Counted from the first letter of the stretch, positions 5,389-35,087 are shown. The stretch is 35,087 nucleotides of DNA from a virus (IMGVR_UViG_3300027858_000017:1-35087); one strand, 5' to 3'. Notes: generated from the sequence alone by a model not told the origin. Numbers and translations are program-made.

Positions 5389-6096
5389 ATGGAAATAGGC
5401 GTTGAAAATATTAAAAAACATAAAAACTGCTATTACTCAACAGACAATGGTATATTATTTTGTGGGGATTGTTTGGAAGTTATGCAGACAATTGGTTTTG
5501 TTGACATCTTGTTGACTGATCCACCATACGGGATAGGCATGGATAAAGGTTTTAAAACCCCTGGAAAATTTGAGGGATCAAATGTACGAATTAAATGCAG
5601 ACAATATAATGATAATTGGGATGCAGAAAGGCCGTCAAAAGAAATTTTTGATAATATGTTAAAAATTGCTAAATTATGTTTGATATTTGGTGGAAATTTT
5701 TTTGCCGATATATTGCCATTAGGTACACACTGGATCGTATGGGATAAAAAAACTACTATGCCAACATTTGGCGATGCTGAACTTATTTGGACAAACAGCA
5801 AACGTAAATCAATAAAAATTTTTGTGTATGAATATAATGGTTTATTCGGAAAAGAAAAAGAAAGATTTCATCCAACACAAAAACCGGTCGTCTTGATTAT
5901 GAGACTTTTGGATCGATACTCTAAACTTGGCGATCTTGTTTTAGATTGTTTTTTAGGCTCAGGAACTACGGCAATCGCCTGTGAAAGATTGGGGCGCAAA
6001 TGGATCGGGATTGAAAAAGACGAGAAATACTGCGAGATAGCAGCAAAAAGGCTTGAAACTGAAACATCCCAATTAAAATTATTAAGGATTGATTAA
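5389..6096 (+). CDS. Orphan DNA methyltransferase (N6-adenine or N4-cytosine, beta-type order)
   Basis: 235 aa. Motif IV DPPY is at residues 44-47 (LLTDPPYG), directly after the N-terminal LFCGDCLEVM segment. The S-adenosylmethionine-binding motif I comes late as DCFLGSGTT (186-194), followed by CERLGRKWIGIEKDE. This order (catalytic motif before the AdoMet motif) is that of the beta class in the N6_N4_Mtase family. The FHPTQKPV motif before it is also typical. No restriction enzyme gene is next to it, so it most likely modifies phage DNA to escape host restriction or regulate its own transcription. The target sequence cannot be read from the gene. It ends just before a strong bidirectional terminator. 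Confidence 0.93.
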   Translation: MEIGVENIKKHKNCYYSTDNGILFCGDCLEVMQTIGFVDILLTDPPYGIGMDKGFKTPGKFEGSNVRIKCRQYNDNWDAERPSKEIFDNMLKIAKLCLIFGGNFFADILPLGTHWIVWDKKTTMPTFGDAELIWTNSKRKSIKIFVYEYNGLFGKEKERFHPTQKPVVLIMRLLDRYSKLGDLVLDCFLGSGTTAIACERLGRKWIGIEKDEKYCEIAAKRLETETSQLKLLRID

Positions 6097-20419: not shown

Positions 20420-20953
20420 ATGTCCATAGCTCAGATGATTTTTAATAAAGGGAACTACATAGAAAATATCGAATTAGACGCTATAATCTCAGAGAGTGCG
20501 ACCGCCGTTGCCGAAGTTACAGAAAATCCTGTTGAGTATGGTGCAGACATAAATGACCATATGATTATAAAGCCTATGTCTTTTACAGTTTCCGGGGTTG
20601 TAAGTAATGTCAATTCAAAAAATATAAGTTTTCCGACAGACTTTCCCGCGTCATTTAGCAAAACTACTAATAAAAGTCAAATAACATGGGAAGCACTTTT
20701 GAAGCTGCAGATCAATAGGACGCCTTTCACATTAGTCCAGGGCCTTAAAAGATACTCTAACGTAGTCATAATTAGTTTAAGCGAAACGCAAGACGTTGAC
20801 ACAGCTAATGGCCTTTTTTTTACCGCAACACTGAAGGAAATCATCAAAGCAGGGGCTCAACTGGTCACAAAGGATCAATTCAAAGATCAAAAAATCGCAG
20901 ATATGGCACTACCTAGTATACATGGTGGACTAAAACAAATTACAAAGGGTTGA
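20420..20953 (+). CDS. Dit-like tail/baseplate protein, N-terminal type
   Basis: 177 aa. The sequence IELDAIISESATAVAEVTENPVEYGADINDHMIIKPMSFTVSGVVSN matches the pattern of the small Dit-like tail proteins: 'i.ld......e.....vt.hPve.Ga.itDHv...p......g'. WEALLKLQINRTPFTLVQGLKRYSNVVIISLSETQD fits the rest of that domain. These proteins form a ring around the tube tip in myophage baseplates. It is followed by the plug and hub genes. Confidence 0.77.
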   Translation: MSIAQMIFNKGNYIENIELDAIISESATAVAEVTENPVEYGADINDHMIIKPMSFTVSGVVSNVNSKNISFPTDFPASFSKTTNKSQITWEALLKLQINRTPFTLVQGLKRYSNVVIISLSETQDVDTANGLFFTATLKEIIKAGAQLVTKDQFKDQKIADMALPSIHGGLKQITKG

Positions 20954-20990
20954 TATGAGTTAAAACAAATTACAAAGGATTAAAACAAGT
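20931..20990 (+). repeat. 30-bp tandem repeat spanning the end of the Dit-like gene
   Basis: TAAAACAAATTACAAAGGGT (20931-20950) recurs as TAAAACAAATTACAAAGGAT (20961-20980), 30 bp later, with a partial third copy TAAAACAAG at 20981. The copies straddle the stop of one gene and the start region of the next. Confidence 0.75.
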
Positions 20991-20994
20991 TAAA

Positions 20995-21279
20995 ATGGAT
21001 TATTTACCATTAACAAATAGCCCCGAGGAAAAATTCAATATATCTATTTTTGAGAATGTTTTTATTATCCGACAATGCTGGAACACACTCGGCTTTTGGA
21101 CATTAGATATTCAAAATGCTAATGGAAAAAACCTTGTGTTGGGCATAAAAATAGTCGCACACACAAAACTATTACAACAATATCCTTTCTTTTCTTTTGA
21201 TTTTTTAAGCCTGAATAGTTCTGACCCAGTAAGGCATAATTTAAGTTTATTCAACTTAAGAATTATAAAACGTTATTAA
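20995..21279 (+). CDS. Baseplate plug protein (probable)
   Basis: 94 aa. The sequence YLPLTNSPEEKFNISIFENVFIIRQCWNTLGFWTLDIQNANGKNLVLGIKI fits the small baseplate plug family of Mu-like and Pam3-like phages ('lPl.......f.v.l.g..y.l.l.wn...g.W.ldi.d..g..ll.G..l'). It closes the tip of the tail tube. It follows the Dit-like gene and precedes the hub gene. Confidence 0.72.
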   Translation: MDYLPLTNSPEEKFNISIFENVFIIRQCWNTLGFWTLDIQNANGKNLVLGIKIVAHTKLLQQYPFFSFDFLSLNSSDPVRHNLSLFNLRIIKRY

Positions 21280-21350: not shown

Positions 21351-22208
21351 ATGTTTAAACGTGTTTTCAAAATATTGATTCCTGAAAAATTAATTGAAAT
21401 CACAGGACTGAGGGTAAATTTCAAAGTTGAAAAAAGCCTTATCGGGTACCCTAACCTGGCAAATATAAAAATTTATAATCTGTCAGAAAACAATAGAAAT
21501 AATATTGAAAAACAAGGGTTAAAAATCCAATTATATGCAGGTTATGAAGATGTTTCTATGCCCTTAATTTTTGAAGGTGATATTGTAAATGTCGTCCATA
21601 AAAAAGAAAATACAGATTGGATTAGTGAATTATTTTGCGCGGATGGATTAAATATTTTAAATAGCGCAGTCATAAATAAGACTTTCCCTGCGGGCATAAG
21701 CCCTGAAAAAATATACAACGAACTTGTTGGCCATATGGTGGGAATAAAAAAAGGAGCAACTGAAGGCATAAAAAACTGTTTGTCTGGGAAAAGGTCAATT
21801 TTGCGAGAAATGCAATTATCGGGAAGTGTAAAGGAATTTTTGGACAGATTAGCCAAAGACTGCGGATTTGATTACTCTATTAATGATGGAGTAATAGAGA
21901 CAACCCCAACAAATTTGCCATTGGATGATATTCCGCCGATAATTATTAATCAAAATACCGGTATGATTGGCAGCCCAGAAAGAACCGAAATCGGACTTAA
22001 TGTAAGCCACTTATTATTGCCTGAGCTAAAGCTTGCCAGGACAATTAAGGTTGAGGCAATTACGACTAAATTAAATGTAGGCAACTTATTTTTTCATAAA
22101 ATTCCACCTGTAAGAAATTCTGGGGTGTATAGAATTGACAAAATAATACATACAGGTGATACTCATGGGGGGGCCTGGTTGTCTCAGATATACGCAAGAA
22201 TTTTTTAA
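21351..22208 (+). CDS. Baseplate hub protein (gp44/gpD-like)
   Basis: 285 aa. FKVEKSLIGYPNLANIKIYNLSENNRNNIEKQGLKIQLYAGYED matches the first domain of phage hub proteins ('v.k.....pN...i.iyNLs...r..i...g..v.L.aGY'). It is followed by LIFEGDIVNVVHKKENTDWISELFCADG and a second domain ending with GVYRIDKIIHTGDTHGGAWLSQIYA ('y.v..v.H.gD...g.W.t.'). Hub proteins form the trimer between tube and spike. It is followed by the spike gene. Confidence 0.87.
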   Translation: MFKRVFKILIPEKLIEITGLRVNFKVEKSLIGYPNLANIKIYNLSENNRNNIEKQGLKIQLYAGYEDVSMPLIFEGDIVNVVHKKENTDWISELFCADGLNILNSAVINKTFPAGISPEKIYNELVGHMVGIKKGATEGIKNCLSGKRSILREMQLSGSVKEFLDRLAKDCGFDYSINDGVIETTPTNLPLDDIPPIIINQNTGMIGSPERTEIGLNVSHLLLPELKLARTIKVEAITTKLNVGNLFFHKIPPVRNSGVYRIDKIIHTGDTHGGAWLSQIYARIF

Positions 22209-22300
22209 TGTTTGAAAAATTAATAATTAAGATAAAAGTTTTTTTAAATGGTTGAAAAATTAATAATATACACAAGGTTTTTTTAAATGGCTGAAAAAAC
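22201..22300 (+). repeat. Three near-tandem copies of a translation start region
   Basis: Units begin at 22201, 22239 and 22278, about 38-39 bp apart, each reading approximately TTTTTTTAAATGGTTGAAAA. The third contains the real ATG (22287) of the spike gene; the first two start short frames MFEKLIIKIKVFLNG and MVEKLIIYTRFF that soon stop. Confidence 0.8.
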
Positions 22301-24628: not shown

Positions 24629-25317
24629 CTGATAACCAAATCGTAAAAAAAGGAATTGACAGGCTCGTTTATCAATTCGAGAAAAGCGTTAAATTTCAAG
24701 AGTTTATTGCATCTTTCCTTAATGAATTCCAGGAATTATATAATTCTGAAAATCAATTATTAAAATATCGATATATTGATACAGCAGAAGGGGTACAACT
24801 TGACGGCATAGGCGAAATCGTTGGATTACCACGGCCAAAAATTGAAACTATTTTGGAAGCATTCGGATTTTTAGAAGACCCAACGGCGCTAGGCTTTGGG
24901 GATTTTTTTAACCCTGATGTTGGTGGCTATTTTTGGGACGGCATAAGCGGATCTTATATACTCGCTAGTGATAAGATTTATCGGATTTTGATTAAAGCGA
25001 AAATTTTAGAAAATCAAACGCCTATGAATGTAGATGATACAATACAAATTATCTCTAACATACTAATGGATACTGAAGTCGAGTATTATCTACAATCAAA
25101 TCTTCATCCTCGCTATTATATAGCCAGATATTTGGATAATTTTGAAATTGAGTTAGTATGCAGATTACCAATGTTAATTGGGTTAGGTGATGTTTGTTTT
25201 ATTTTGTGGACCCCTGACACAACTTTTTCATTTTTGGAAGATCCTGAAGGGCTGGGATTCGGTGATATAGATAACCCCGATGTGGGCGGTACTTGGGCAT
25301 CAATAATCGGGAAATAA
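24625..25317 (+). CDS. DUF2612 baseplate component with an internal repeat
   Basis: 230 aa. N-terminal region: YSENQLLKYRYIDTAEGVQLDGIGEIVGLPR-type segment (here LYNSENQLLKYRYIDTAEG, then VQLDGIGEIVGLPRP), the DUF2612 landmark 'a.G.qLd.iG.ivG..R'. The protein contains the same motif twice: FLEDPTALGFGDFFNPDVGG at about residues 83-102 and FLEDPEGLGFGDIDNPDVGG at about 203-222, the second at the C-terminus. This class links the wedge to the fibres. The fibre gene follows immediately. Confidence 0.8.
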   Translation: MTDNQIVKKGIDRLVYQFEKSVKFQEFIASFLNEFQELYNSENQLLKYRYIDTAEGVQLDGIGEIVGLPRPKIETILEAFGFLEDPTALGFGDFFNPDVGGYFWDGISGSYILASDKIYRILIKAKILENQTPMNVDDTIQIISNILMDTEVEYYLQSNLHPRYYIARYLDNFEIELVCRLPMLIGLGDVCFILWTPDTTFSFLEDPEGLGFGDIDNPDVGGTWASIIGK

Positions 25318-25331
25318 AAAGGAGCAAATAT

Positions 25332-28220
25332 ATGACAAAACCGGAAATTTTACCCGTATGGGACGAAACAAGAGTTAACACAAGAGAGCCAGACATCGAC
25401 CATCGAAATGATGGGTGGGTGTCACCTGGAGGGATACCCAGAAAGCCATCATATCAATATTTTAATTTTTGGCAAAATAACGTGTATAGATGGATTGATG
25501 AGATAAACAAGTCCGGAATTTTAAGCTATGATGCCTTGACAAACTATACGTCTAACAAGTCTTATGCTGTAGGGAAAAATGGGGATTTATATAGATGTCT
25601 TAAGAATAATGGGCCTGGTTCTTTCATAGTCGATCCCGTTTACGATAAAACCGGCACTTGGGAAACAATAGGGACAAGTCCCGGTGTGATCCCTGGCCCC
25701 GATATTTCTCCATCATTCCCGGCCAATCATAAAGATGGGTTAAGGTTAAATGATAACGCTGATTATAAAAATAGTTATATTGTATATCCTGGGGAGGCGC
25801 GGGATGATACAAACACGGAAAACATAAAATTTAACGAGGGAAACTATGAAACTATGTTAAAAACGACTGACCCATTCGTAACAGGCAATAGGCAAGGGTC
25901 TTTAGATTTTGGGTCAATTAGTATCAATAAATGGTATCATATTTTTATCATAAAAAATGTAGAAACGGATACAGTCGATTTTTTAATGAGTTTAGGGCCC
26001 AGGTATCCAGTATTGCCTAATGGGTTTACAAAAAAAAGATGGATAGGTGCAGTGTTGACTGATTCTAATAAAAATATCACCCCTTTTATTCAAAAAGGAA
26101 ATTGTTTTCTTTGGCGAAATATTGAAAAATTTGATGTGGACCGCACTGACTTGGGGACAGCGGCAAGACGGGCAATATTAAATACACCGTCCCATATTGA
26201 AACAATTGCACATATAAATTATAAATTCCACAAAGGAAAAAAGGCTTTTTTAGATATTTTTGATTGCTTTAGAACTAGACCTAGTAGTTTCAATCACCCA
26301 TTTGCACTTGGGATTGTCTCAGTAAGTGAGGATAAACAATTTACAAACGGATGGTTGAGTATACGCACAGATTCGAACCAGACAATAATGGTTGTATCGA
26401 GTGCCCAGGAATCAACTTTGCAAATTATTACTTTAGGTTGGGAAACAGACTTTAACCTCAGATATCAGTCCGGAGCATTACCGGGATTTGAAGAAGAGGA
26501 AGAAGAAGAAGAAGAAACAGGAGAAGAAGAACAAGAAGTAATGGATTATTATAAAATGATTGCAGAAATTGAAAAAAATATATGGGCATATTATAAAAAA
26601 ACCAGCACAAAAGAAAAGACAATAGAAGACATTAAGAAAACATTAAGGCGATATTTTGAAGAAAACACTAGCGGGAGTATTGAGAACGACGAGAAAGTTG
26701 TCAAACAAATTGAGAAAGACATCAGAGAATACTATAATAATCCATATTTAAGACCAGAGGAAGTAGTTGAGCAGATAAAAATGAATTTAGAAAAATATTT
26801 AAGAGGATCTTATCCTCAGGAAGAGGAGGAAGGAGAAGAAGGAGAAGAAGGAGAAGAAGGAGAAGAAAGCGGAGACATTGAAGAAAAAATGTATTATAAT
26901 ATCATGATGACGGCAATCGAAAAAAGCTTAAAAGAATATTTGTATGATGGGACAATCGGAAAAGACAAAGCAGTCGGAAGCATCAAAAAAAGCTTAAAAG
27001 AATATTTAAAAAAATATCCAAGAGAAAATGACAAAGCAAACGAAAAATTGGTTAATCAAATCGAGAAAAATATAAGGTCATATTTCAACAATGAATTTAT
27101 GAATAAAGAAGAAATAACTAAACAAATTAAGATAGATTTAAACAAATATTTGGAAAGATATTTTCAGCCAAAAATTGGAGAAAATATAAATTATGAAAAT
27201 CCGAAAAGAATTGAAAGTAACATTGAAGAACAAGCAAATAATGAAGGTTTGGAAAAAGTTGAAAGCAATGTTGAAAAGATGACAGATTATGATAAGATAG
27301 TTAAAGAAATTGAAAGCAGTATTAGAAAATATTTTGAAAAAAAACCAGATGGGATTGAAGAACGAGAACGGGAAGATCAGGAAGAGCAAGAAGAACAGAA
27401 AGAACAGAAAGAGCAAGAGAAAGAAGAACAAAAACAAATAGAAAAAGAACAAAAGATTGAAACAAAACCAGTTTATGACAAAATAATCGGAGAAATTGAA
27501 AGCAGTATAAGAAAATATTTTGATAAAAAGCAAGAGCCAGACGAAATTGAAGAACAAGAGCAGGCAGAACAGAAAAAAGAAACAGAGCAGGAAAGACAAG
27601 AACGAAAACGAATAGAAAAAGAACAGAGGCAAGAGCAGGAAAAAAGAGAGCAAGAGAAAAGGAAAAAACAGGAACAAGAAAAAAAGGAGCAGAAGAAAAA
27701 AGCAGAGCAAGAAAAACAGGAACGAAAACAAATAGAAAAAGAAATAATAAAAAAGCAGGAGGAAAAAGAAAAAGAAATAAGAAAAGAAGAAGAACGAGAA
27801 AAACAAGAACAGAAACAAAGAGAGCAAGAGATAAGGAAAGAAGAGGAACAAGAGAAAAAAGAGCAGAAGAAAAAAATAGAACAGGAAAAACAGAAGCAAA
27901 AACAAATAGAGAAAGAACGAAAACAAGAACAAGAAAAAAGAGAGCAAGAAAAAAGAAAAAAAGAGGAGCAAGAGAAAAAGGAGCAAAAGAAAAAAGCAGA
28001 GCAAGAAAAACAAGAACAAAAACGAATAGAGCAAGAAAAAAGAAAAGAGCAAGAGAAGAGAGAACAAGAAAAAAGAAAAGAAGAGGAATTGAAAAAACAA
28101 GAACAAAAACAAAGAGAAAAAGATAGAGAAAAGCGAAAAAAAGAGCAGGAGAAAAGAGAAAAAGAGAGAGAAAAAGAGAGAGAAAAAAGAGAACAAGAAC
28201 GAGAAAAGCAAAAAAGATAG
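25332..28220 (+). CDS. Tail fibre with a repeat-built, highly charged helical C-terminal half
   Basis: 962 aa from ATG 25332 (AAGGAG upstream). Residues 1-385: a fibre N-terminus with WVSPGGIPRKPSYQYFNFWQN, then a small aromatic, possibly carbohydrate-binding element with YTSNKSYAVGKNGDLYRCLKNN, and a beta-rich head domain. From residue 386 the composition changes. An E-rich linker leads to ten copies of a 15-residue helix, consensus IxxxIexxIxxYfxx, at about 409, 430, 456, 478, 525, 547, 573, 595, 656 and 718. The first eight form two four-helix modules with nearly equal spacings (21/26/22 and 22/26/22). A GEE-repeat linker at 497-515 separates them. Residues 733-962 are almost only E, K, Q and R. 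It may form a long single helix or coiled coil. It follows the baseplate, so a fibre role is likely; the C-terminal function is unknown. Confidence 0.82.
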   Translation: MTKPEILPVWDETRVNTREPDIDHRNDGWVSPGGIPRKPSYQYFNFWQNNVYRWIDEINKSGILSYDALTNYTSNKSYAVGKNGDLYRCLKNNGPGSFIVDPVYDKTGTWETIGTSPGVIPGPDISPSFPANHKDGLRLNDNADYKNSYIVYPGEARDDTNTENIKFNEGNYETMLKTTDPFVTGNRQGSLDFGSISINKWYHIFIIKNVETDTVDFLMSLGPRYPVLPNGFTKKRWIGAVLTDSNKNITPFIQKGNCFLWRNIEKFDVDRTDLGTAARRAILNTPSHIETIAHINYKFHKGKKAFLDIFDCFRTRPSSFNHPFALGIVSVSEDKQFTNGWLSIRTDSNQTIMVVSSAQESTLQIITLGWETDFNLRYQSGALPGFEEEEEEEEETGEEEQEVMDYYKMIAEIEKNIWAYYKKTSTKEKTIEDIKKTLRRYFEENTSGSIENDEKVVKQIEKDIREYYNNPYLRPEEVVEQIKMNLEKYLRGSYPQEEEEGEEGEEGEEGEESGDIEEKMYYNIMMTAIEKSLKEYLYDGTIGKDKAVGSIKKSLKEYLKKYPRENDKANEKLVNQIEKNIRSYFNNEFMNKEEITKQIKIDLNKYLERYFQPKIGENINYENPKRIESNIEEQANNEGLEKVESNVEKMTDYDKIVKEIESSIRKYFEKKPDGIEEREREDQEEQEEQKEQKEQEKEEQKQIEKEQKIETKPVYDKIIGEIESSIRKYFDKKQEPDEIEEQEQAEQKKETEQERQERKRIEKEQRQEQEKREQEKRKKQEQEKKEQKKKAEQEKQERKQIEKEIIKKQEEKEKEIRKEEEREKQEQKQREQEIRKEEEQEKKEQKKKIEQEKQKQKQIEKERKQEQEKREQEKRKKEEQEKKEQKKKAEQEKQEQKRIEQEKRKEQEKREQEKRKEEELKKQEQKQREKDREKRKKEQEKREKEREKEREKREQEREKQKR
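26832..26867 (+). repeat. Four perfect copies of GGAGAAGAA (coding GEE)
   Basis: Four exact 9-bp units at 26832, 26841, 26850 and 26859 inside the fibre gene, encoding the linker between the two four-helix modules. Likely to vary in number by slippage. Confidence 0.85.
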
Positions 28221-28637: not shown

Positions 28638-28730
28638 TAAAAATAAACAAAAAGCTTTACAAACAAGAAAAAGTTGTATATATTTGCAGGTGTTAATAAT
28701 AAACATGTTGTTTTTTTTAAAGAGTTGATA

Positions 28731-29192
28731 ATGCAGATAAAATGGATAATCACAATATCACAGTCTAAAATAGCGCAAATTGTATGGAGGTTTGGTCGTC
28801 CAGTATTTGTAAGGATAGCAAAAAAATCAGGAAATAGTTTTGACAATACATTTGTATTTTTGATGGATATGCTGATACCAGCAAAACAAAAAAAAACACC
28901 AAATAAAAAAAAGGAGGGAAAGGGAAAAAAGGAAGGTGGCAAAGATAAAAATAATCTAATAAAGGAGGAAGAATCAATGGAACGTGGAGACGTAAGGAAA
29001 GGAATGGGAGAAATGGATGTCGTGAAAAATTTCTTTACACCTGCAATACTAAAATCATCGCATATTGTGCAGGCAGCCTGGAAAATTTTGCGCCCCTTGT
29101 TGGCGGTACCGGCAGGAATTACACGCAACGAGCTTGACGACAAACTAGTTGCTTTAATCGATGACATATTAGACATTGATTATAATGATTAA
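28731..29192 (+). CDS. In-frame fusion of two copies of a small repeated protein (153 aa)
   Basis: From ATG 28731 the frame encodes a first divergent copy (SKIAQIVWRFGRPVF, NSFDNTFVFLMDML). A lysine and glycine-rich linker rich in K, G and E follows, and then a second copy (SSHIVQAAWKILRPLL, NELDDKLVALIDDI). The same pattern is found a third time in the separate gene 29228-29440. The shared pattern is 'S.i.q..W...RP.........n.lDd....l.d.i'. A strong ribosome site and ATG at 28977 lie inside, so the second copy can be made alone. A TTG at 28674 would add 19 residues but has no support. Its function is unknown. Confidence 0.55.
   Translation: MQIKWIITISQSKIAQIVWRFGRPVFVRIAKKSGNSFDNTFVFLMDMLIPAKQKKTPNKKKEGKGKKEGGKDKNNLIKEEESMERGDVRKGMGEMDVVKNFFTPAILKSSHIVQAAWKILRPLLAVPAGITRNELDDKLVALIDDILDIDYND
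28977..29192 (+). CDS. 71-aa repeated small protein, second copy, with its own start
   Basis: AAAGGAGG at 28961-28968 lies eight bases before ATG 28977, the best ribosome site of the area. The 71-aa product aligns along its whole length with the 70-aa product of 29228-29440: MDVVKNFFTPAILKSSHIVQ against MEVIQKFFDPAILRSSIVAQ, and VPAGITRNELDDK against IPAGMTHNELDDK. It shares its frame with a longer reading that starts at 28731. No transmembrane segment is evident. The amphipathic, proline-containing helix followed by an acidic end does not match a family I know. It is located before the amidase. Confidence 0.7.
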   Translation: MERGDVRKGMGEMDVVKNFFTPAILKSSHIVQAAWKILRPLLAVPAGITRNELDDKLVALIDDILDIDYND

Positions 29193-29227: not shown

Positions 29228-29440
29228 ATGGCAGAAGAAAAAGGACTAATGGAAAGAATGTATGATATGGAAGTTATCCAAAAATTTTTTGACCCGGCCA
29301 TATTGAGGTCGTCAATAGTTGCGCAGACAATATGGAAAGCACTCAGACCTTTGCTTGCTATACCGGCAGGCATGACACATAATGAGCTGGACGATAAGAT
29401 TATAGATTTTTTGGACAATATCATAGATATCAACAGTTAA
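29228..29440 (+). CDS. 70-aa repeated small protein, third copy
   Basis: ATG 29228 follows AAAAAAGGAGAC. It is a clear paralogue of the 28977 gene, with the same order: acidic start (MAEEKGLMERMYD), FFDPAIL helix, W..LRPLLAIPAG, NELDDKIIDFLDNI. The two genes are 35 bases apart. They are probably the result of tandem duplication, kept because of dosage or because the two products assemble together. No signal peptide, transmembrane helix or catalytic motif is visible. Its place between membrane protein and amidase suggests a role in lysis or in a late structure. The evidence is positional only. Confidence 0.72.
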   Translation: MAEEKGLMERMYDMEVIQKFFDPAILRSSIVAQTIWKALRPLLAIPAGMTHNELDDKIIDFLDNIIDINS

Positions 29441-30137: not shown

Positions 30138-30572
30138 ATGGAAAAAAATATAAAATATAAAAAAGGTTTTAAAAATCAGTTAGCAAATGACTACGAAATT
30201 GAGATAGCGCTTGATTTGCCTAAATTTTATAGGACAGAACAGAAATATATAACACTTAGTTATAATACACCAAACAAAGCAAATTTAAAAATATCTAAAG
30301 GTTATGCTTGGGACGGGGCATCAGGGCCAACATGGGATGATAAAAAAAATACTAGAGCGTCTCTTGTCCACGATGCCTTGTACCAATTGATGCGGTTTAG
30401 AAAACTTGATCGCAACTACAGAAAATCCGTTGATATAATTTTTTTGAGAATATGCCTTGAAGACAAAATGTGTATAATTAGATCTTATTATTATTACTTT
30501 GCGATCAGACTTTTTGCTCGATTTGCAACAAGTCCAAGAAATAAAAAAAAGGTTATATCCGCCCCTGTTTAA
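30138..30572 (+). CDS. DUF1353 family phage protein
   Basis: 144 aa. The signature GYAWDGASGPTWDDKKNTRASLVHDALYQLMR (about residues 55-86) is the DUF1353 hallmark, with W-D-G-A-S and the conserved SLVHDALY helix that has a histidine and an aspartate. The rest is helical with an aromatic run (SYYYYFAIRLFARFA). Such genes are commonly found next to endolysin genes in phages; their biochemical function is not established. It has no clear ribosome site. Its stop codon lies in the loop of a terminator. Confidence 0.82.
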   Translation: MEKNIKYKKGFKNQLANDYEIEIALDLPKFYRTEQKYITLSYNTPNKANLKISKGYAWDGASGPTWDDKKNTRASLVHDALYQLMRFRKLDRNYRKSVDIIFLRICLEDKMCIIRSYYYYFAIRLFARFATSPRNKKKVISAPV

Positions 30573-30588
30573 GGAAATATAACCTTTT
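30547..30588 (+). terminator. Bidirectional terminator between converging genes
   Basis: AAAAGGTTATAT (30547-30558) pairs perfectly with ATATAACCTTTT (30577-30588), 12 bp, with the DUF1353 stop TAA (30570-30572) in the loop. It separates the plus-strand late region from the minus-strand accessory operon. Confidence 0.75.
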
Positions 30589-30594
30589 AATGCT

Positions 30595-30628
30595 GTGATT
30601 TGATTTAAAAACAATAGGGTTTTTTTAT
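30595..30628 (-). repeat. 3'-flank repeat, copy next to paralogue 1
   Basis: Contains the 16-mer ATTTAAAAACAATAGG (30603-30618), also at 32128-32143, with similar flanks on both sides. On the minus strand it reads AAAAAC, CCTATT, GTTTTT, a weak hairpin that could end the minus-strand transcript. It lies directly after the stop of the last gene of that operon. Confidence 0.65.
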
Positions 30629-30629
30629 C

Positions 30630-31028
30630 CTACATATGCCAGGTTAATGGGTATCCTGCTTTTTCCCAGTCTTTCAAAGCCTGATCCCAGTTAATAACAT
30701 GTTGAGCTATAATTTTTATGTCCCCTGTTTTAAGATTTTTTTCAATCTCGAAATCCGGAAAGACATATTTATTGAAGCCGTGATCATCAACAATGACTTT
30801 GATACAACTTGTTTTTTTAAATTTGCCACTAGCAATAGCCAGCTTTTCCGATATTTCAATTTCAGGATTTTGACTGATGGCGTGTATTTTCCCAGGTATT
30901 TTATCAAGGCTAAGGCTTGAGTCGTCAATTTCGTTTCGTATTTTTGCAACATAATCTAACCCGATATTTTCTTCTTCTTTAGATACTGCATAATACCGCA
31001 CAGCAGAAAATTTTATTGTTAATTTCAT
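30630..31028 (-). CDS. Accessory paralogue 1 (132 aa, unrecognised family)
   Basis: Minus strand, ATG 31028, preceded by AAGGGG. One of three closely related proteins in this operon. Shared pattern: M(K/E)L.I.F.A, then AVSK, GLDYVAKIR, LSLDKIPG.I, ISEKLAIASG.FKKT.YI.VIV.D.G.NKYVFPDFEIEKN..TGD, and a final LKDWEKAG.PL.W. It is small, mixed alpha-beta, without signal, membrane segment, zinc site or catalytic motif. I do not recognise the family. The position in a promoter-driven minus-strand cassette between lysis and early regulation is typical of moron or anti-defence genes; the role is not shown. This copy differs most from the other two in the last third (INWDQALKDW in place of IDCEQVLKDW). 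Confidence 0.78.
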   Translation of the reverse strand: MKLTIKFSAVRYYAVSKEEENIGLDYVAKIRNEIDDSSLSLDKIPGKIHAISQNPEIEISEKLAIASGKFKKTSCIKVIVDDHGFNKYVFPDFEIEKNLKTGDIKIIAQHVINWDQALKDWEKAGYPLTWHM

Positions 31029-31078
31029 TTTTTCCCCTTTTTGTTTTTTTTTTATTTTGTTATTTTTTTTTCTATTGA

Positions 31079-31492
31079 TTATTCTTTATCTTTCATGTAC
31101 CAAAAAAGTGGAAACCCTGCTTTTTCCCAGTCTTTTAAAACTTGCTCACAGTCAATGCTATATTTAGGGATAATCTTTTCGACACCTCCTGTTTCCAGGT
31201 TTTTTTCAATCTCAAAATCAGAAAAAATATATTTATTTAATCCATAATCATTAACGATGACTTCTATATAATTAGTTTTTCTAAACAATCCACTAGCAAT
31301 AGCTAATTGTTCCGAGATTTTAATTATAGGATTCTGACAAATAGAATCTATTTTTTCAGGTATTTTCTCAAGGCTAAAATTTTTAGCTCCAATTTCATCT
31401 CGTATTCTTTCAACATAATCTAACCCCATTATCTTTTCTGGTTTAGACACTGCACAATCACGTTCAGCAGAAAATCTTATTTTTAACTCCAT
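31079..31492 (-). CDS. Accessory paralogue 2 (137 aa)
   Basis: ATG 31492 is chosen because AGGAG stands at 31500-31504 and because the product then begins MELKIRFSAE like its sisters; a longer frame from 31558 has no support. The pattern of the family is clear: GLDYVERIRDEI, SLEKIPEKI, ISEQLAIASGLFRKTNYIEVIVNDYGLNKYIFSDFEIEKN and IDCEQVLKDWEKAGFPLFW, followed by a short tail (YMKDKE) that the third copy lacks. It lies 50 bases upstream of paralogue 1 and 44 bases downstream of the pyrophosphohydrolase-like gene. Function unknown. Confidence 0.78.
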   Translation of the reverse strand: MELKIRFSAERDCAVSKPEKIMGLDYVERIRDEIGAKNFSLEKIPEKIDSICQNPIIKISEQLAIASGLFRKTNYIEVIVNDYGLNKYIFSDFEIEKNLETGGVEKIIPKYSIDCEQVLKDWEKAGFPLFWYMKDKE

Positions 31493-31536
31493 TTTTTCTC
31501 TCCTTTTTGCTTTTTTTTTGTTAAAATCAAGCTTAT

Positions 31537-31860
31537 TTACTTGTTGATACGTTCGCAAAATAATCCCTCCAGCAATAATAAATAATTGATATTATCACCT
31601 AATTTTAAATCAATTAATGCCTTTGTAATTTTTTCGGGGTCTGTTTTAGACCAGCTTATCATATCTTGGACTGAGGCCTCATGCTTTACCATGATTCCTT
31701 TGAGTGCTTGTTCTGGTGTACAATTCGATATCCTAGCTGCCACTTTAAAATTGTGAAAACGATCTGATTTTGTTGAGTATTCATCGCTTTTATAGGATAA
31801 AGTATTCTGTATTTTATCCCAGCGTTCTTTTAAGATTTTATTAAATGTTGGATGGTCCAT
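31537..31860 (-). CDS. All-alpha NTP-pyrophosphohydrolase-like protein (tentative)
   Basis: 107 aa, ATG 31860, preceded by TAGGAAAT. The sequence resembles a small family common in phages and Firmicutes: a first helix with LKERWDKIQNTLSYKSDEYSTKSDRFHNFKVAARISNCTPEQALKG, then KHEASVQDMI, and a last helix with LIDLKLGDNINYLLLLEGL. The 'K..EY....dR.hNF', 'K...s..D.i' and 'kl.D..NY..L' elements recall MazG-like or DUF1599-type proteins that bind or cleave nucleotides. The catalytic E-x-x-E pattern is not certain, so hydrolase activity cannot be claimed. It is inserted between members of the paralogue family in the same operon. Confidence 0.6.
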   Translation of the reverse strand: MDHPTFNKILKERWDKIQNTLSYKSDEYSTKSDRFHNFKVAARISNCTPEQALKGIMVKHEASVQDMISWSKTDPEKITKALIDLKLGDNINYLLLLEGLFCERINK

Positions 31861-31921
31861 TTTTTTATTTCCTATATTATAAAATTATTAATTTTGTCTG
31901 CATGCTAACAATTTTTCATGC

Positions 31922-32083
31922 TTATATTTTCTCATGCTCACAATCTTTTTTTCCGCCTATAATTATTTTTCGTCCTATAGCATCAAGCCAGACCTCAGCC
32001 CCGCAATGCTTACACGTTGCGATATATTCCCATCTAATATCAATCCCAGGATTTTCCGCATAATGCTTCGGCTTGTTTTCCAT
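31922..32083 (-). CDS. 53-aa zinc-ribbon protein
   Basis: Minus strand, ATG 32083, TAA at 31922; AAGGGG lies upstream. The product begins MENKPKHYAENPGIDIRW and has CKHC (C24, C27) and DCEH (C48, H50), a C2CH zinc ribbon. The middle is strand-like (GAEVWLDAIGRKIIIGG). It is in the correct direction and spacing of the minus-strand operon. It was not in the supplied frame list because of its length. Probably a nucleic-acid or protein-binding adaptor. No known family was recognised. Confidence 0.7.
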   Translation of the reverse strand: MENKPKHYAENPGIDIRWEYIATCKHCGAEVWLDAIGRKIIIGGKKDCEHEKI

Positions 32084-32116
32084 GTTTTTTTTTGCCCCTT
32101 CTTGTTGTTTTTTTTT

Positions 32117-32152
32117 GTGATAATTTAATTTAAAAACAATAGGTTTTTTTAT
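32117..32152 (-). repeat. 3'-flank repeat, copy after paralogue 3
   Basis: Second copy of the element at 30595-30628, sharing ATTTAAAAACAATAGG (32128-32143) and the following T-run. It lies downstream of paralogue 3 on the minus strand, separated from its stop by a hairpin. Confidence 0.65.
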
Positions 32153-32205
32153 AATAATCTGATAAAAGTCTCATTTTTGCAACCTTTACCAGATTATTTT
32201 TTTTG
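32153..32205 (+). terminator. Intergenic hairpin after paralogue 3
   Basis: AATAATCTG (32153-32161) pairs with CAGATTATT (32190-32198). An additional TAAA/TTTA pairing is possible with a bulge, and T's follow to 32204 on the plus strand. On the minus strand the run is of A's, so its use as a minus-strand terminator is doubtful. Confidence 0.5.
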
Positions 32206-32208
32206 CCT

Positions 32209-32613
32209 TTAGAATATATTCCATAGTAACGGACAACCTTCTTCTTTCCAATCTTTTAAAACCTGCTCACAGTCAATGCTATATTTAGATGTGATATTTA
32301 TTACATCTCCTGTTTCTGGGTTTTTTTCAATCTCGAAGTCTGGGAAAACATACTTATTTAATCCGTAATCAGTTACAATGACTTGTATATAGTGTGTTTT
32401 TTTAAATAATCCACTAGCAACCGCCAATTTTTCCGAGATATCAATTATAGGATTCTGACAGATAGATTCTATATCTCCAGGTATTTTGTCAAGGCTAAGG
32501 TTTTGGTCTTCCGCTGCATCTCGTACTTTTGCAACATAATCTAACCCTACGGTATTAGCTGTCTTAGAGACTGCATAATGAGGCTCGGCTTCAAATCTTA
32601 TTTTTAATTCCAT
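32209..32613 (-). CDS. Accessory paralogue 3 (134 aa), first gene of the minus-strand operon
   Basis: ATG 32613 follows AAAGGAG on the minus strand. It carries all features of the family: MELKIRFEAEPHYAVSK, GLDYVAKVRD, LSLDKIPGDI, ISEKLAVASGLFKKTHYIQVIVTDYGLNKYVFPDFEIEKN and IDCEQVLKDWKEEGCPLLW. It is the closest to the promoter and therefore probably the most strongly expressed. Cysteine 125 is not conserved in the sisters. The order from the promoter is paralogue 3, zinc ribbon, pyrophosphohydrolase-like, paralogue 2, paralogue 1, so duplication was followed by insertion of other genes or rearrangement. Function unknown. Confidence 0.78.
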   Translation of the reverse strand: MELKIRFEAEPHYAVSKTANTVGLDYVAKVRDAAEDQNLSLDKIPGDIESICQNPIIDISEKLAVASGLFKKTHYIQVIVTDYGLNKYVFPDFEIEKNPETGDVINITSKYSIDCEQVLKDWKEEGCPLLWNIF

Positions 32614-32744
32614 TTTTTTGTCTCCTTTGTAGTTGTTAGTTTTTATTGTTTTTCTGCTTTTTCTTTGTTCTTTCCATCAAACAATCGATACCCGCCTACC
32701 CTCTTTGGGGTGTGTGCTTGGTTTCACTCGATCATTTGAGTCCT

Positions 32745-32773
32745 ATATTACAAGATCCAAAATAAAAAGTCAA
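32745..32773 (-). promoter_or_regulatory. Minus-strand sigma70 promoter of the accessory operon
   Basis: On the minus strand: TTGACT (32773-32768), 17-bp spacer, TAATAT (32750-32745). Predicted start near 32738, 125 bases upstream of the first gene's ATG (32613), leaving a long leader. It diverges from the early promoter at 32846; a TTGTAATAATTATTTAACAA word at 32791-32810 between them may be an operator (weak). Confidence 0.75.
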
Positions 32774-32845: not shown

Positions 32846-32874
32846 TTGACTTTTTTTTACAATATGGATATAAT
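32846..32874 (+). promoter_or_regulatory. Sigma70-type early promoter before the first HTH gene
   Basis: TTGACT (32846-32851), 17 bp, TATAAT (32869-32874): perfect -10. Predicted start near 32881, 33 bases before ATG 32914, which has AAGGAGG at 32901-32907. Confidence 0.82.
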
Positions 32875-32913: not shown

Positions 32914-33117
32914 ATGACAAAAAAACAGTTAACAAATTTCCAGAAATTGGTGAAAGATAATCATCAAATATTATTAGATGCAGGGTACAGCCAGTCTACC
33001 ATCTATAGCTGGCGTAACGGTGTATACCCGCATTTGCACAAGGTGGCAGGATTGGCAAAAGTCCTTGGTGTGGATGAGCGCGAACTCCCTTATTTTTTGC
33101 CAATTAGAAAAGATTAA
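32914..33117 (+). CDS. Cro/C1-type HTH regulator (67 aa)
   Basis: ATG 32914 after AAGGAGG. The 67-aa protein is one helix-turn-helix domain: a first helix FQKLVKDNHQILLDAG, the turn-recognition part YSQSTIYSWRNG, and a third element HLHKVAGLAKVLGVDERELPYF typical of XRE-type domains. Size and position after an early promoter, opposite a divergent promoter, resemble Cro. No partner repressor of C1 size is present. It probably represses the minus-strand operon or its own promoter. That is inference from layout. Confidence 0.72.
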   Translation: MTKKQLTNFQKLVKDNHQILLDAGYSQSTIYSWRNGVYPHLHKVAGLAKVLGVDERELPYFLPIRKD

Positions 33118-33250: not shown

Positions 33251-33451
33251 TTGACGACACGAAAACTTTTAAGGGATAGAATCAAGCTAGTGTGCAAGAC
33301 ACAGGATCAATGCGCTTATGATCTCAAGATTGATGCCGGGATTTTGTCAAAAATTATAAATTGCACTAAGGACCCGACGGATGATCAAGTGGTAAAACTG
33401 AGTAATTACCTTAATGTGACAACAAAGGAGGTGGTCCTTAAAAATGGATGA
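33251..33451 (+). CDS. Small HTH protein (66 aa), TTG start
   Basis: TTG 33251 lies after AAGGAGGGGG, a very strong ribosome site, which decides the start. The 66-aa product has an XRE-like pattern: LLRDRIKLVCKTQDQCAYDLKIDAGILSKIINCTKDPTDDQVVKLSNYL, with the helix-turn-helix near residues 15-40. It is probably a second DNA-binding regulator of the early region. It overlaps the exonuclease gene by eight bases (ATG 33444, stop 33449-33451). An AAGGA..TCCTT hairpin at 33425-33439 masks part of the next ribosome site, which may couple the two. Confidence 0.7.
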   Translation: MTTRKLLRDRIKLVCKTQDQCAYDLKIDAGILSKIINCTKDPTDDQVVKLSNYLNVTTKEVVLKNG

Positions 33452-34157: not shown

Positions 34158-35087
34158 ATGATACATGGATTGTTACCATCACTTGCTGAGTCTGGCCGCA
34201 TAAAGCTCGGCAAAAAAGGAAAAGCCGTAACATCTAAAGATGGGAAAACTTTTAGACTGCCTGAAAAATTATCATATTTTCTGTTGACAACAACAGAAAA
34301 AGATCAAGACACAGACGACTACATTATAGACACCGAAATAATGGATATTTTAAAAAAGAATGGAAAAGCAGCATATAATGCTGATGGTAAATTAGTAGGA
34401 ATCCCCATAAGACTTTTATATAATGATATAGATATGAATCTGTCAACACAATATGTTAGTTATGTTGGGGGATTGCTGGCTTGCTCAGGGGATGGACAAG
34501 AAGGCAAGACCAGAGACGGACGCAAAGTCAAATGCCCCTGTGGAAAGTTGGACAACTCCTATGTAGGCAACGATAAATGCAAGCTTTATAGTGTCTTAAG
34601 TGTTTTAATTGAGGGGGCGCGAATTGGCACTTGTTATAAATTAAGGACAACGTCTAATAATACAGCGAGACATCTTATTAGTAGCATGATTTTAATCAAA
34701 ACACGTACAGGGGGACTTTTAGCTTTCATACCGTTGCAATTAGTAGTCAGGCCAAAAAAAACAATTATTCCTAGCACCGGGGCACCGGTTACTGTATATG
34801 TTGCGAGTCTTGAGTATCCAGGAAGCGAGGATGAGCTGAGGGAAAAAGCGCTTAAAATGGGGGCCGAAAGTGTCAAGCTTATTGCTAATATGAGAGATAT
34901 CGAGGCTGAGGCTAAAAAATTCATAACGCCTATTGATAACATAAACGAAGAGTTTGAAATAGCAACGGAATTTTTTCCAAATTCTATAGAACTAAAGCCA
35001 GAAACAAAGAAAATTGAACTAGGACAAGAAACAAAAAAACTTGAGCTTAAACCAGAAATAAAAAAAAAGGTAGAACCTAATATGATA
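34158..35087 (+). CDS. Recombination-directionality-factor-like / phage metal-binding protein (cut by right edge)
   Basis: ATG 34158 after AAGGAGG (34144-34150); 310 codons are visible and the frame is open at the right edge. The N-terminal 230 residues resemble the Gp3-like or recombination directionality factor-like phage family. They have a four-cysteine site (C109, C126, C128, C141 in ACSGDG, KCPCGKLD and DKCK). CPCG and the following strand-rich part are also typical. After about residue 285 there is a linker with three similar units, ELKPETKK, ELGQETKK and ELKPEIKK. In such proteins a short helical C-terminus follows, as in the fragment at the left edge. Joining the ends directly would add two codons (KQ) and stop; removal of one A would give a continuous product. 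Confidence 0.72.
   Translation, partial: MIHGLLPSLAESGRIKLGKKGKAVTSKDGKTFRLPEKLSYFLLTTTEKDQDTDDYIIDTEIMDILKKNGKAAYNADGKLVGIPIRLLYNDIDMNLSTQYVSYVGGLLACSGDGQEGKTRDGRKVKCPCGKLDNSYVGNDKCKLYSVLSVLIEGARIGTCYKLRTTSNNTARHLISSMILIKTRTGGLLAFIPLQLVVRPKKTIIPSTGAPVTVYVASLEYPGSEDELREKALKMGAESVKLIANMRDIEAEAKKFITPIDNINEEFEIATEFFPNSIELKPETKKIELGQETKKLELKPEIKKKVEPNMI

Follow-up and report, generated by a model that had tools for sequence, protein, structure and literature searches.

Orphan small genes are common in the variable regions of phage genomes. For accessory genes of highly variable phage regions, screening has revealed host-directed functions, including counter-defence (PMC12373910), and such genes can be multiplied: in T4, selection by toxIN leads to amplification of the counter-defence gene tifA (PMC9391042), and in phage T6 the segmental amplification of anti-defence loci is driven by SegB (PMC13096335). 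On paralogue arrays in phages, our literature search yielded nothing specific. Here we describe an accessory operon of an uncultured tailed phage whose core consists of three diverged paralogues, P1, P2 and P3, and we discuss how it relates to morons, anti-CRISPR loci and amplified counter-defence genes.

Genome context and layout of the operon

The window, i.e. the whole stretch of DNA that was analysed, has 35,087 bases (GC 35%) and is a fragment, as are many of the virus records with which it was compared. Its structural genes are akin to those of a group of IMG/VR contigs, the large terminase being ~53-69% identical for the closer ones, and the terminase of the nearest cultured relatives, Erwinia phage RF1 and Yersinia phages, is ~45% identical. 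Scanning genome contigs with the terminase, towards a host assignment, gave no match. In five long relatives (L089-L102, contigs of 41-46 kb with a terminase that is 56-66% identical), most genes for head, tail and baseplate are conserved, and so is their order, but neither the operon nor a copy of the paralogues was found there, and a nucleotide search with the whole operon against phages gave no match either. As these five contigs keep the structural genes and lack the operon, the latter is lineage-specific within the set of genomes compared. In the three of these contigs that were inspected throughout (G014, G021 and G031), the tail-fibre gene is followed by an opposite-strand replication module instead of lysis genes and operon. 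The genes of this module, named from their translations and not by a family search, encode a DnaE-like polymerase, a VRR-NUC-like nuclease and a helicase. No clean empty site that would show insertion was seen among the relatives.

Several other features of the window deserve mention. A DNA N6/N4 methylase gene (5389-6096, plus strand; PF01555, E 4e-30), the product of which possibly protects against restriction, has a match in one of the five long relatives (G021), confined to the C-terminal part. The predicted tail-fibre protein (25293-28220, plus strand; overall GRAVY -1.52) is matched by relatives in its N-terminal part only and ends in several hundred extremely charged residues with E/K/R/Q runs, which look like a long single-alpha-helix or coiled-coil extension; the corresponding low-complexity part (~26490-28217) contains tandem repeats of 3 to 294 bp and protein repeats of the type IEKNIRxYF. 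Short tandem repeats span gene junctions in the tail region at 22188-22298 and 20931-21002, the latter with the ribosome-binding-site-like unit AAAGGA, and a 27-bp tandem repeat (2.9 copies, 34989-35067, plus strand) lies within the last, truncated ORF, a Gp3-like or recombination-directionality-factor-like gene at 34158.

The five genes at 30630-32613 are the only ones assigned to the minus strand, where they occupy 1.7 kb as compared to 29.2 kb of plus-strand genes. On one flank they are bordered by an Amidase_3 endolysin gene and a DUF1353 gene, on the other by two small HTH genes of the Cro/CI type (32914-33117 and 33251-33451), both divergent from the operon, and by a PolB-type exonuclease gene. 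The features of the locus are, in the presumed direction of transcription:

32745-32773, minus strand: candidate promoter TTGACT-17-TAATAT, 9/12 consensus matches, suitably positioned upstream of P1
32672-32740, minus strand: hairpin, richer in GC (local GC 0.41-0.46), within what is presumably the 5' leader of the mRNA (-20.6 kcal/mol, z -2.4)
32209-32613, minus strand: P1, 134 aa, orphan family copy 1 (Shine-Dalgarno sequence AAAGGAG)
32153-32198, minus strand: strong hairpin in the intergenic gap that follows P1 (-20.6 kcal/mol, z -6.9)
32110-32150, minus strand: copy of a 41-nt repeat downstream of P1, 80% identical to 30585-30625
31922-32083, minus strand: small CxxC...CxH protein, 53 aa, zinc-ribbon-like at best
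31537-31860, minus strand: all-helical protein, 107 aa, assigned to phrog_6802 by its PHROG match, with a four-helix AlphaFold2 model
31079-31492, minus strand: P2, 137 aa, orphan family copy 2 (Shine-Dalgarno sequence AAAGGAG); length counted from the ATG, the mechanical ORF beginning at an upstream TTG
30630-31028, minus strand: P3, 132 aa, orphan family copy 3 (Shine-Dalgarno sequence AAAGGGG)
30585-30625, minus strand: copy of the 41-nt repeat downstream of P3
30545-30588, minus strand: intrinsic-terminator-like hairpin with a U8 tract (-16.2 kcal/mol, z -4.9)

Each ORF has a good Shine-Dalgarno sequence just upstream, and both the separate minus-strand unit and its placement between lysis genes and early regulators are as an earlier note on this DNA had described them. 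The consensus promoter that the note ascribed to the unit exists as a sequence, but its 9/12 match is not better than chance and proves little by itself, as in this AT-rich region such matches are common (24 promoter-like sites versus 16.6 +/- 4.0 expected). On the opposite strand there is a strong consensus promoter match (11/12) at 32846-32874. At the far end, the operon is predicted to have its own terminator, i.e. the hairpin at 30545-30588, which is followed by U8 on the minus strand and overlaps the end of the convergent DUF1353 gene. Owing to its G-U pairs, the hairpin downstream of P1 folds far less well on the plus strand (-11.0 kcal/mol, z -3.2) than on the minus strand, and yet it is the plus strand that has the U-tract. 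Through an effect on RNA stability or processing, this hairpin could keep P1 separate from the genes that follow, or it could halt plus-strand read-through. Neither the leader nor the hairpins matched a known RNA in Rfam.

In base composition, the genes for P1, P3, the 107-aa protein and the 53-aa protein lie within about 1.2 sd of the GC content of the other genes, and P2 is the sole operon gene to deviate (z -2.3). The moron-like layout proposed earlier holds with regard to the opposite strand, the operon's own predicted terminator, a unit that was not found in the related phages and the diverged paralogues, but composition speaks against a strict moron and the promoter match says little for one. 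As four of the five genes have ordinary composition and the promoter match is at chance level, we avoid a strict assignment and do not claim that the operon is a moron; that it works like one describes it best.

The neighborhood of the operon also allows for a different explanation, namely a leftward lysogeny or superinfection-immunity operon under a repressor-controlled divergent switch, whose paralogues would shield the infected or lysogenic cell from related phages or modify the host. Such a switch would fit the divergent arrangement with the two Cro/CI-type HTH genes, the 11/12 promoter match on the opposite strand and the recombination-directionality-factor-like gene that follows at 34158. 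However, neither an integrase nor a full-length CI-type repressor was recognised within the fragment, no clear repeated or shared operator was found in the intergenic region between the divergent promoters, and the paralogues are soluble in character (GRAVY about -0.3), unlike many superinfection-exclusion proteins. We regard a lysogeny operon as unlikely.

The companion genes

Over its full length, the 107-aa protein matches phrog_6802, a PHROG without assigned function (E 7e-32). Relatives are present in 124 phage records, mainly of Gordonia, Flavobacterium and Arthrobacter phages, and occur in actinophages and Flavobacterium phages as well as an archaeal virus; six relatives have the motifs K-EY, R-HNF, KH-S-D and K-D-NY in common. 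The four-helix AlphaFold2 model (pLDDT 72) gave nothing significant in Foldseek, and the dUTP pyrophosphatase DR2231 aligned with it at Z 5.0 (rmsd 3.2 over 72 residues), a score that helical proteins of no relation to it reached as well. Searches in Pfam, NCBIfam and PDB sequences returned no MazG, dUTPase or NTP-PPase family at E < 1. The label NTP-pyrophosphohydrolase-like, given to this gene in the earlier note, was not borne out by these profiles. As compared to the all-alpha NTP pyrophosphohydrolases, i.e. MazG, dimeric dUTPase and DR2231, the protein is similar in its four-helix model and in motifs of the E/D/K-N-Y type, but differs in that neither a profile nor a fold match is significant. 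A MazG-type fold is only weakly suggested, and a pyrophosphohydrolase of the MazG/dUTPase-like kind is a reasonable guess.

If this guess was correct, the operon might serve nucleotide metabolism, the phrog_6802 protein hydrolysing (d)NTPs and the paralogues assisting in this pathway as regulators or additional subunits. There is a precedent in cyanophages, whose MazG functions as a dGTP/dCTP pyrophosphohydrolase (PMC6850273), and the wide distribution of phrog_6802 relatives, the conserved motifs within an all-helical model and the presence of all-alpha DR2231 among the weak matches are in line with it. Against it stand the lack of a significant profile match to any NTP-PPase family, the tie of DR2231 with unrelated folds at Z 5, and two other virus records (L005 and L006) that carry phrog_6802 relatives without the paralogue. 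The latter argue that the phrog_6802 protein and the paralogue are not obligate partners, and in the other phages inspected PHROG 6802 sits among other genes than here. A role of the paralogues in nucleotide metabolism is rather doubtful, slightly more so than the lysogeny operon. In the moron-like reading the 107-aa protein would be a co-expressed helper.

The zinc ribbon reported earlier does correspond to a small protein with a CxxC...CxH pattern, but with no significant family, PDB or phage match it is zinc-ribbon-like at best.

Three paralogues of an orphan family

P1, P2 and P3 are homologous far beyond chance (P1 versus P2, E 1e-56; P1 versus P3, E 1e-49), with pairwise identities of 60-68% over the full length, which bears out the earlier description of three related proteins of 132-137 aa. 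Between the pairs dN is 0.19-0.25 and dS 0.68-1.03 (NG86), i.e. dN/dS is about 0.2-0.3; the differences concentrate at third codon positions (p 0.0008 to 0.004 per pair), and the other reading frames are full of stops. By these measures all three are real genes kept by purifying selection at the protein level, and, with dS of ~0.7-1.0, the duplications are old. As selection holds every copy, each probably does something slightly different. The strongest conserved block of the three-way alignment, IxVIVxDxGxNKYxFxDFEIEKN, is followed by LKDWxxxGxPLxW, and divergence is found mostly at residues 8-13, 18-22, 29-39 and 100-118. The proteins are soluble in character and mildly acidic, with net charges of -9.3, -4.5 and -1.1.

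The 41-nt sequence located 3' of both P1 and P3 contains a 21-nt core that occurs in these two places only (0.04 expected), from which we conclude that 3' flanks were duplicated along with a gene. By sequence, P1 is closest to P2, whereas it is P3 with which it has the flank in common, so that the order of the duplication events is not simple; conversion or the loss of one 3' flank is possible. Two other genes, those for the CxxC protein and the 107-aa protein, are now enclosed by the array.

A second duplicated pair is located nearby on the plus strand (28674-29192 and 29228-29440). The former encodes a 172-aa protein without a Pfam match, whose last 67 residues are 54% identical to the 70-aa protein encoded by the latter (E 4e-23). 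Together with the paralogue array this makes two independent gene duplications within 4 kb, while none of the five long relatives contains a paralogous gene pair at E 1e-6.

The tandem arrangement of P2 and P3, the co-duplicated 3' flank and this second, independent pair could also mean that the three copies do the same job and are kept merely for more product. Copies maintained for dosage only would, however, be expected to differ less than by dS 0.7-1.0 and 32-40% of their amino acids, and the copies differ in net charge as well. We give dosage slightly less credence than the role in nucleotide metabolism, and prefer the view that the copies have probably diverged in function.

In Pfam, PHROGs, NCBIfam and PADLOC, P1, P2, P3 and their majority consensus gave only non-significant matches. 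phrog_29695, for which the consensus gave E 0.015 and P1 gave 0.12, was not reproduced by P2 or P3 and is taken as noise, as are phenylalanine ammonia-lyase, the best PDB sequence match of the three-sequence profile (E 0.41), and tape-measure matches in tblastn (E 0.4-0.9). Apart from these, tblastn in phages and plasmids detected no relative of the paralogues, nor did pattern scans of IMG/VR with different conserved stretches or of 84,980 species genomes, which require exact short peptides and may miss distant homologues. No paralogue match was obtained either when 74 virus records (11 + 42 + 21), mostly reached via the terminase and many of them fragments, were searched with a profile. AlphaFold2 on P1 with its paralogues resulted in an unusable model (pLDDT 41), with which Foldseek, not interpretable at this quality, found nothing under E 0.05. 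By eye, the C-terminal half (KYVFPDF...) looks weakly like HicB antitoxins, an idea that was dropped as it had no Pfam support. We thus consider the paralogues an orphan family in the collections searched, relatives of which may exist elsewhere; the family had been called unrecognised before, and the profile searches, which point to no known virion or metabolic family, agree. Single-copy homologues in structural operons were not encountered, the searches having found no homologue at all. Virion accessory proteins, e.g. decoration proteins or head and tail add-ons from an accessory site, might likewise be small, soluble, present in several copies and encoded beside late lysis genes, but the strand opposite to all structural genes, the lack of a significant match to a structural PHROG family and relatives that have the same structural gene set without paralogues make this explanation improbable.

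Proposed role and comparison with known systems

Based on the accessory anatomy and on the published screens and counter-defence amplifications, we hold inhibition of host proteins to be the most likely function and tentatively propose a moron-like accessory operon whose copies have diverged for target variants, a reading that is possible and no firmer than that. The operon would be transcribed leftward as one unit from the divergent promoter region beside the early HTH regulators up to its own terminator. Its core would be the anciently duplicated orphan family of small, soluble, mildly acidic proteins. In the infected cell, each copy may bind to a protein of the host and inhibit it; the target would probably belong to a defence system or activate one, and the copies would have diverged to cover variants of it. 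Co-expressed with them, the CxxC protein and the helical protein of phrog_6802, which is perhaps a nucleotide pyrophosphohydrolase, may help in host takeover. What speaks against this proposal is that composition is clearly foreign only for P2 and that the promoter match is at chance density. Further points against it are that the operon holds no recognised defence or anti-defence gene, that the searches yielded no homologue whose neighbors could reveal such a linkage, that the published amplifications concern fresh copies and not old ones, and that the window, a fragment, has no clean empty counterpart among the relatives.

An anti-defence role of the operon is plausible, but the searches turned up no positive sign of it. 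None of the five genes is a recognisable defence or anti-defence gene: defence-related families gave one sub-significant match only with the five proteins, and no characterised anti-defence protein was matched in Pfam, PHROGs, NCBIfam, PADLOC or PDB, where PADLOC covers defence and not anti-defence families and the P1 model used has a pLDDT of 41. The more specific idea that the paralogues are a new counter-defence family, expanded and diverged against a host defence system that exists in several variants, the neighboring genes acting in the same pathway, is unlikely on present evidence. If the family did serve counter-defence, the phage would keep several diverged versions of an inhibitor, and a comparison of the copies could be used to map which targets each one recognises. 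Otherwise, the locus would be one more orphan accessory operon, valuable as a real gene family not covered by the libraries. It is an orphan gene family within a familiar kind of operon, noteworthy for its three old copies, each of them under selection and without a relative found.

Among known systems, phage morons and accessory-gene islands are closest: like them, the operon is a small independent unit between conserved operons, on the opposite strand, with a predicted terminator of its own and orphan small genes, and it was not found in relatives. It differs in its weak promoter match, in a composition that is not clearly foreign and in three diverged copies, which are unusual. In anti-CRISPR (acr-aca) loci an HTH gene belongs to the same operon, whereas here there is no HTH gene on the minus strand and both HTH genes are divergent and outside the operon, so that we do not file it as anti-CRISPR. 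With the amplified counter-defence genes, i.e. T4 tifA and the SegB-driven segments, it shares, as these are described, the presence of several copies of one small phage gene within an accessory region. Those copies, however, have newly arisen under selection, whereas the three described here are old, diverged and under purifying selection.
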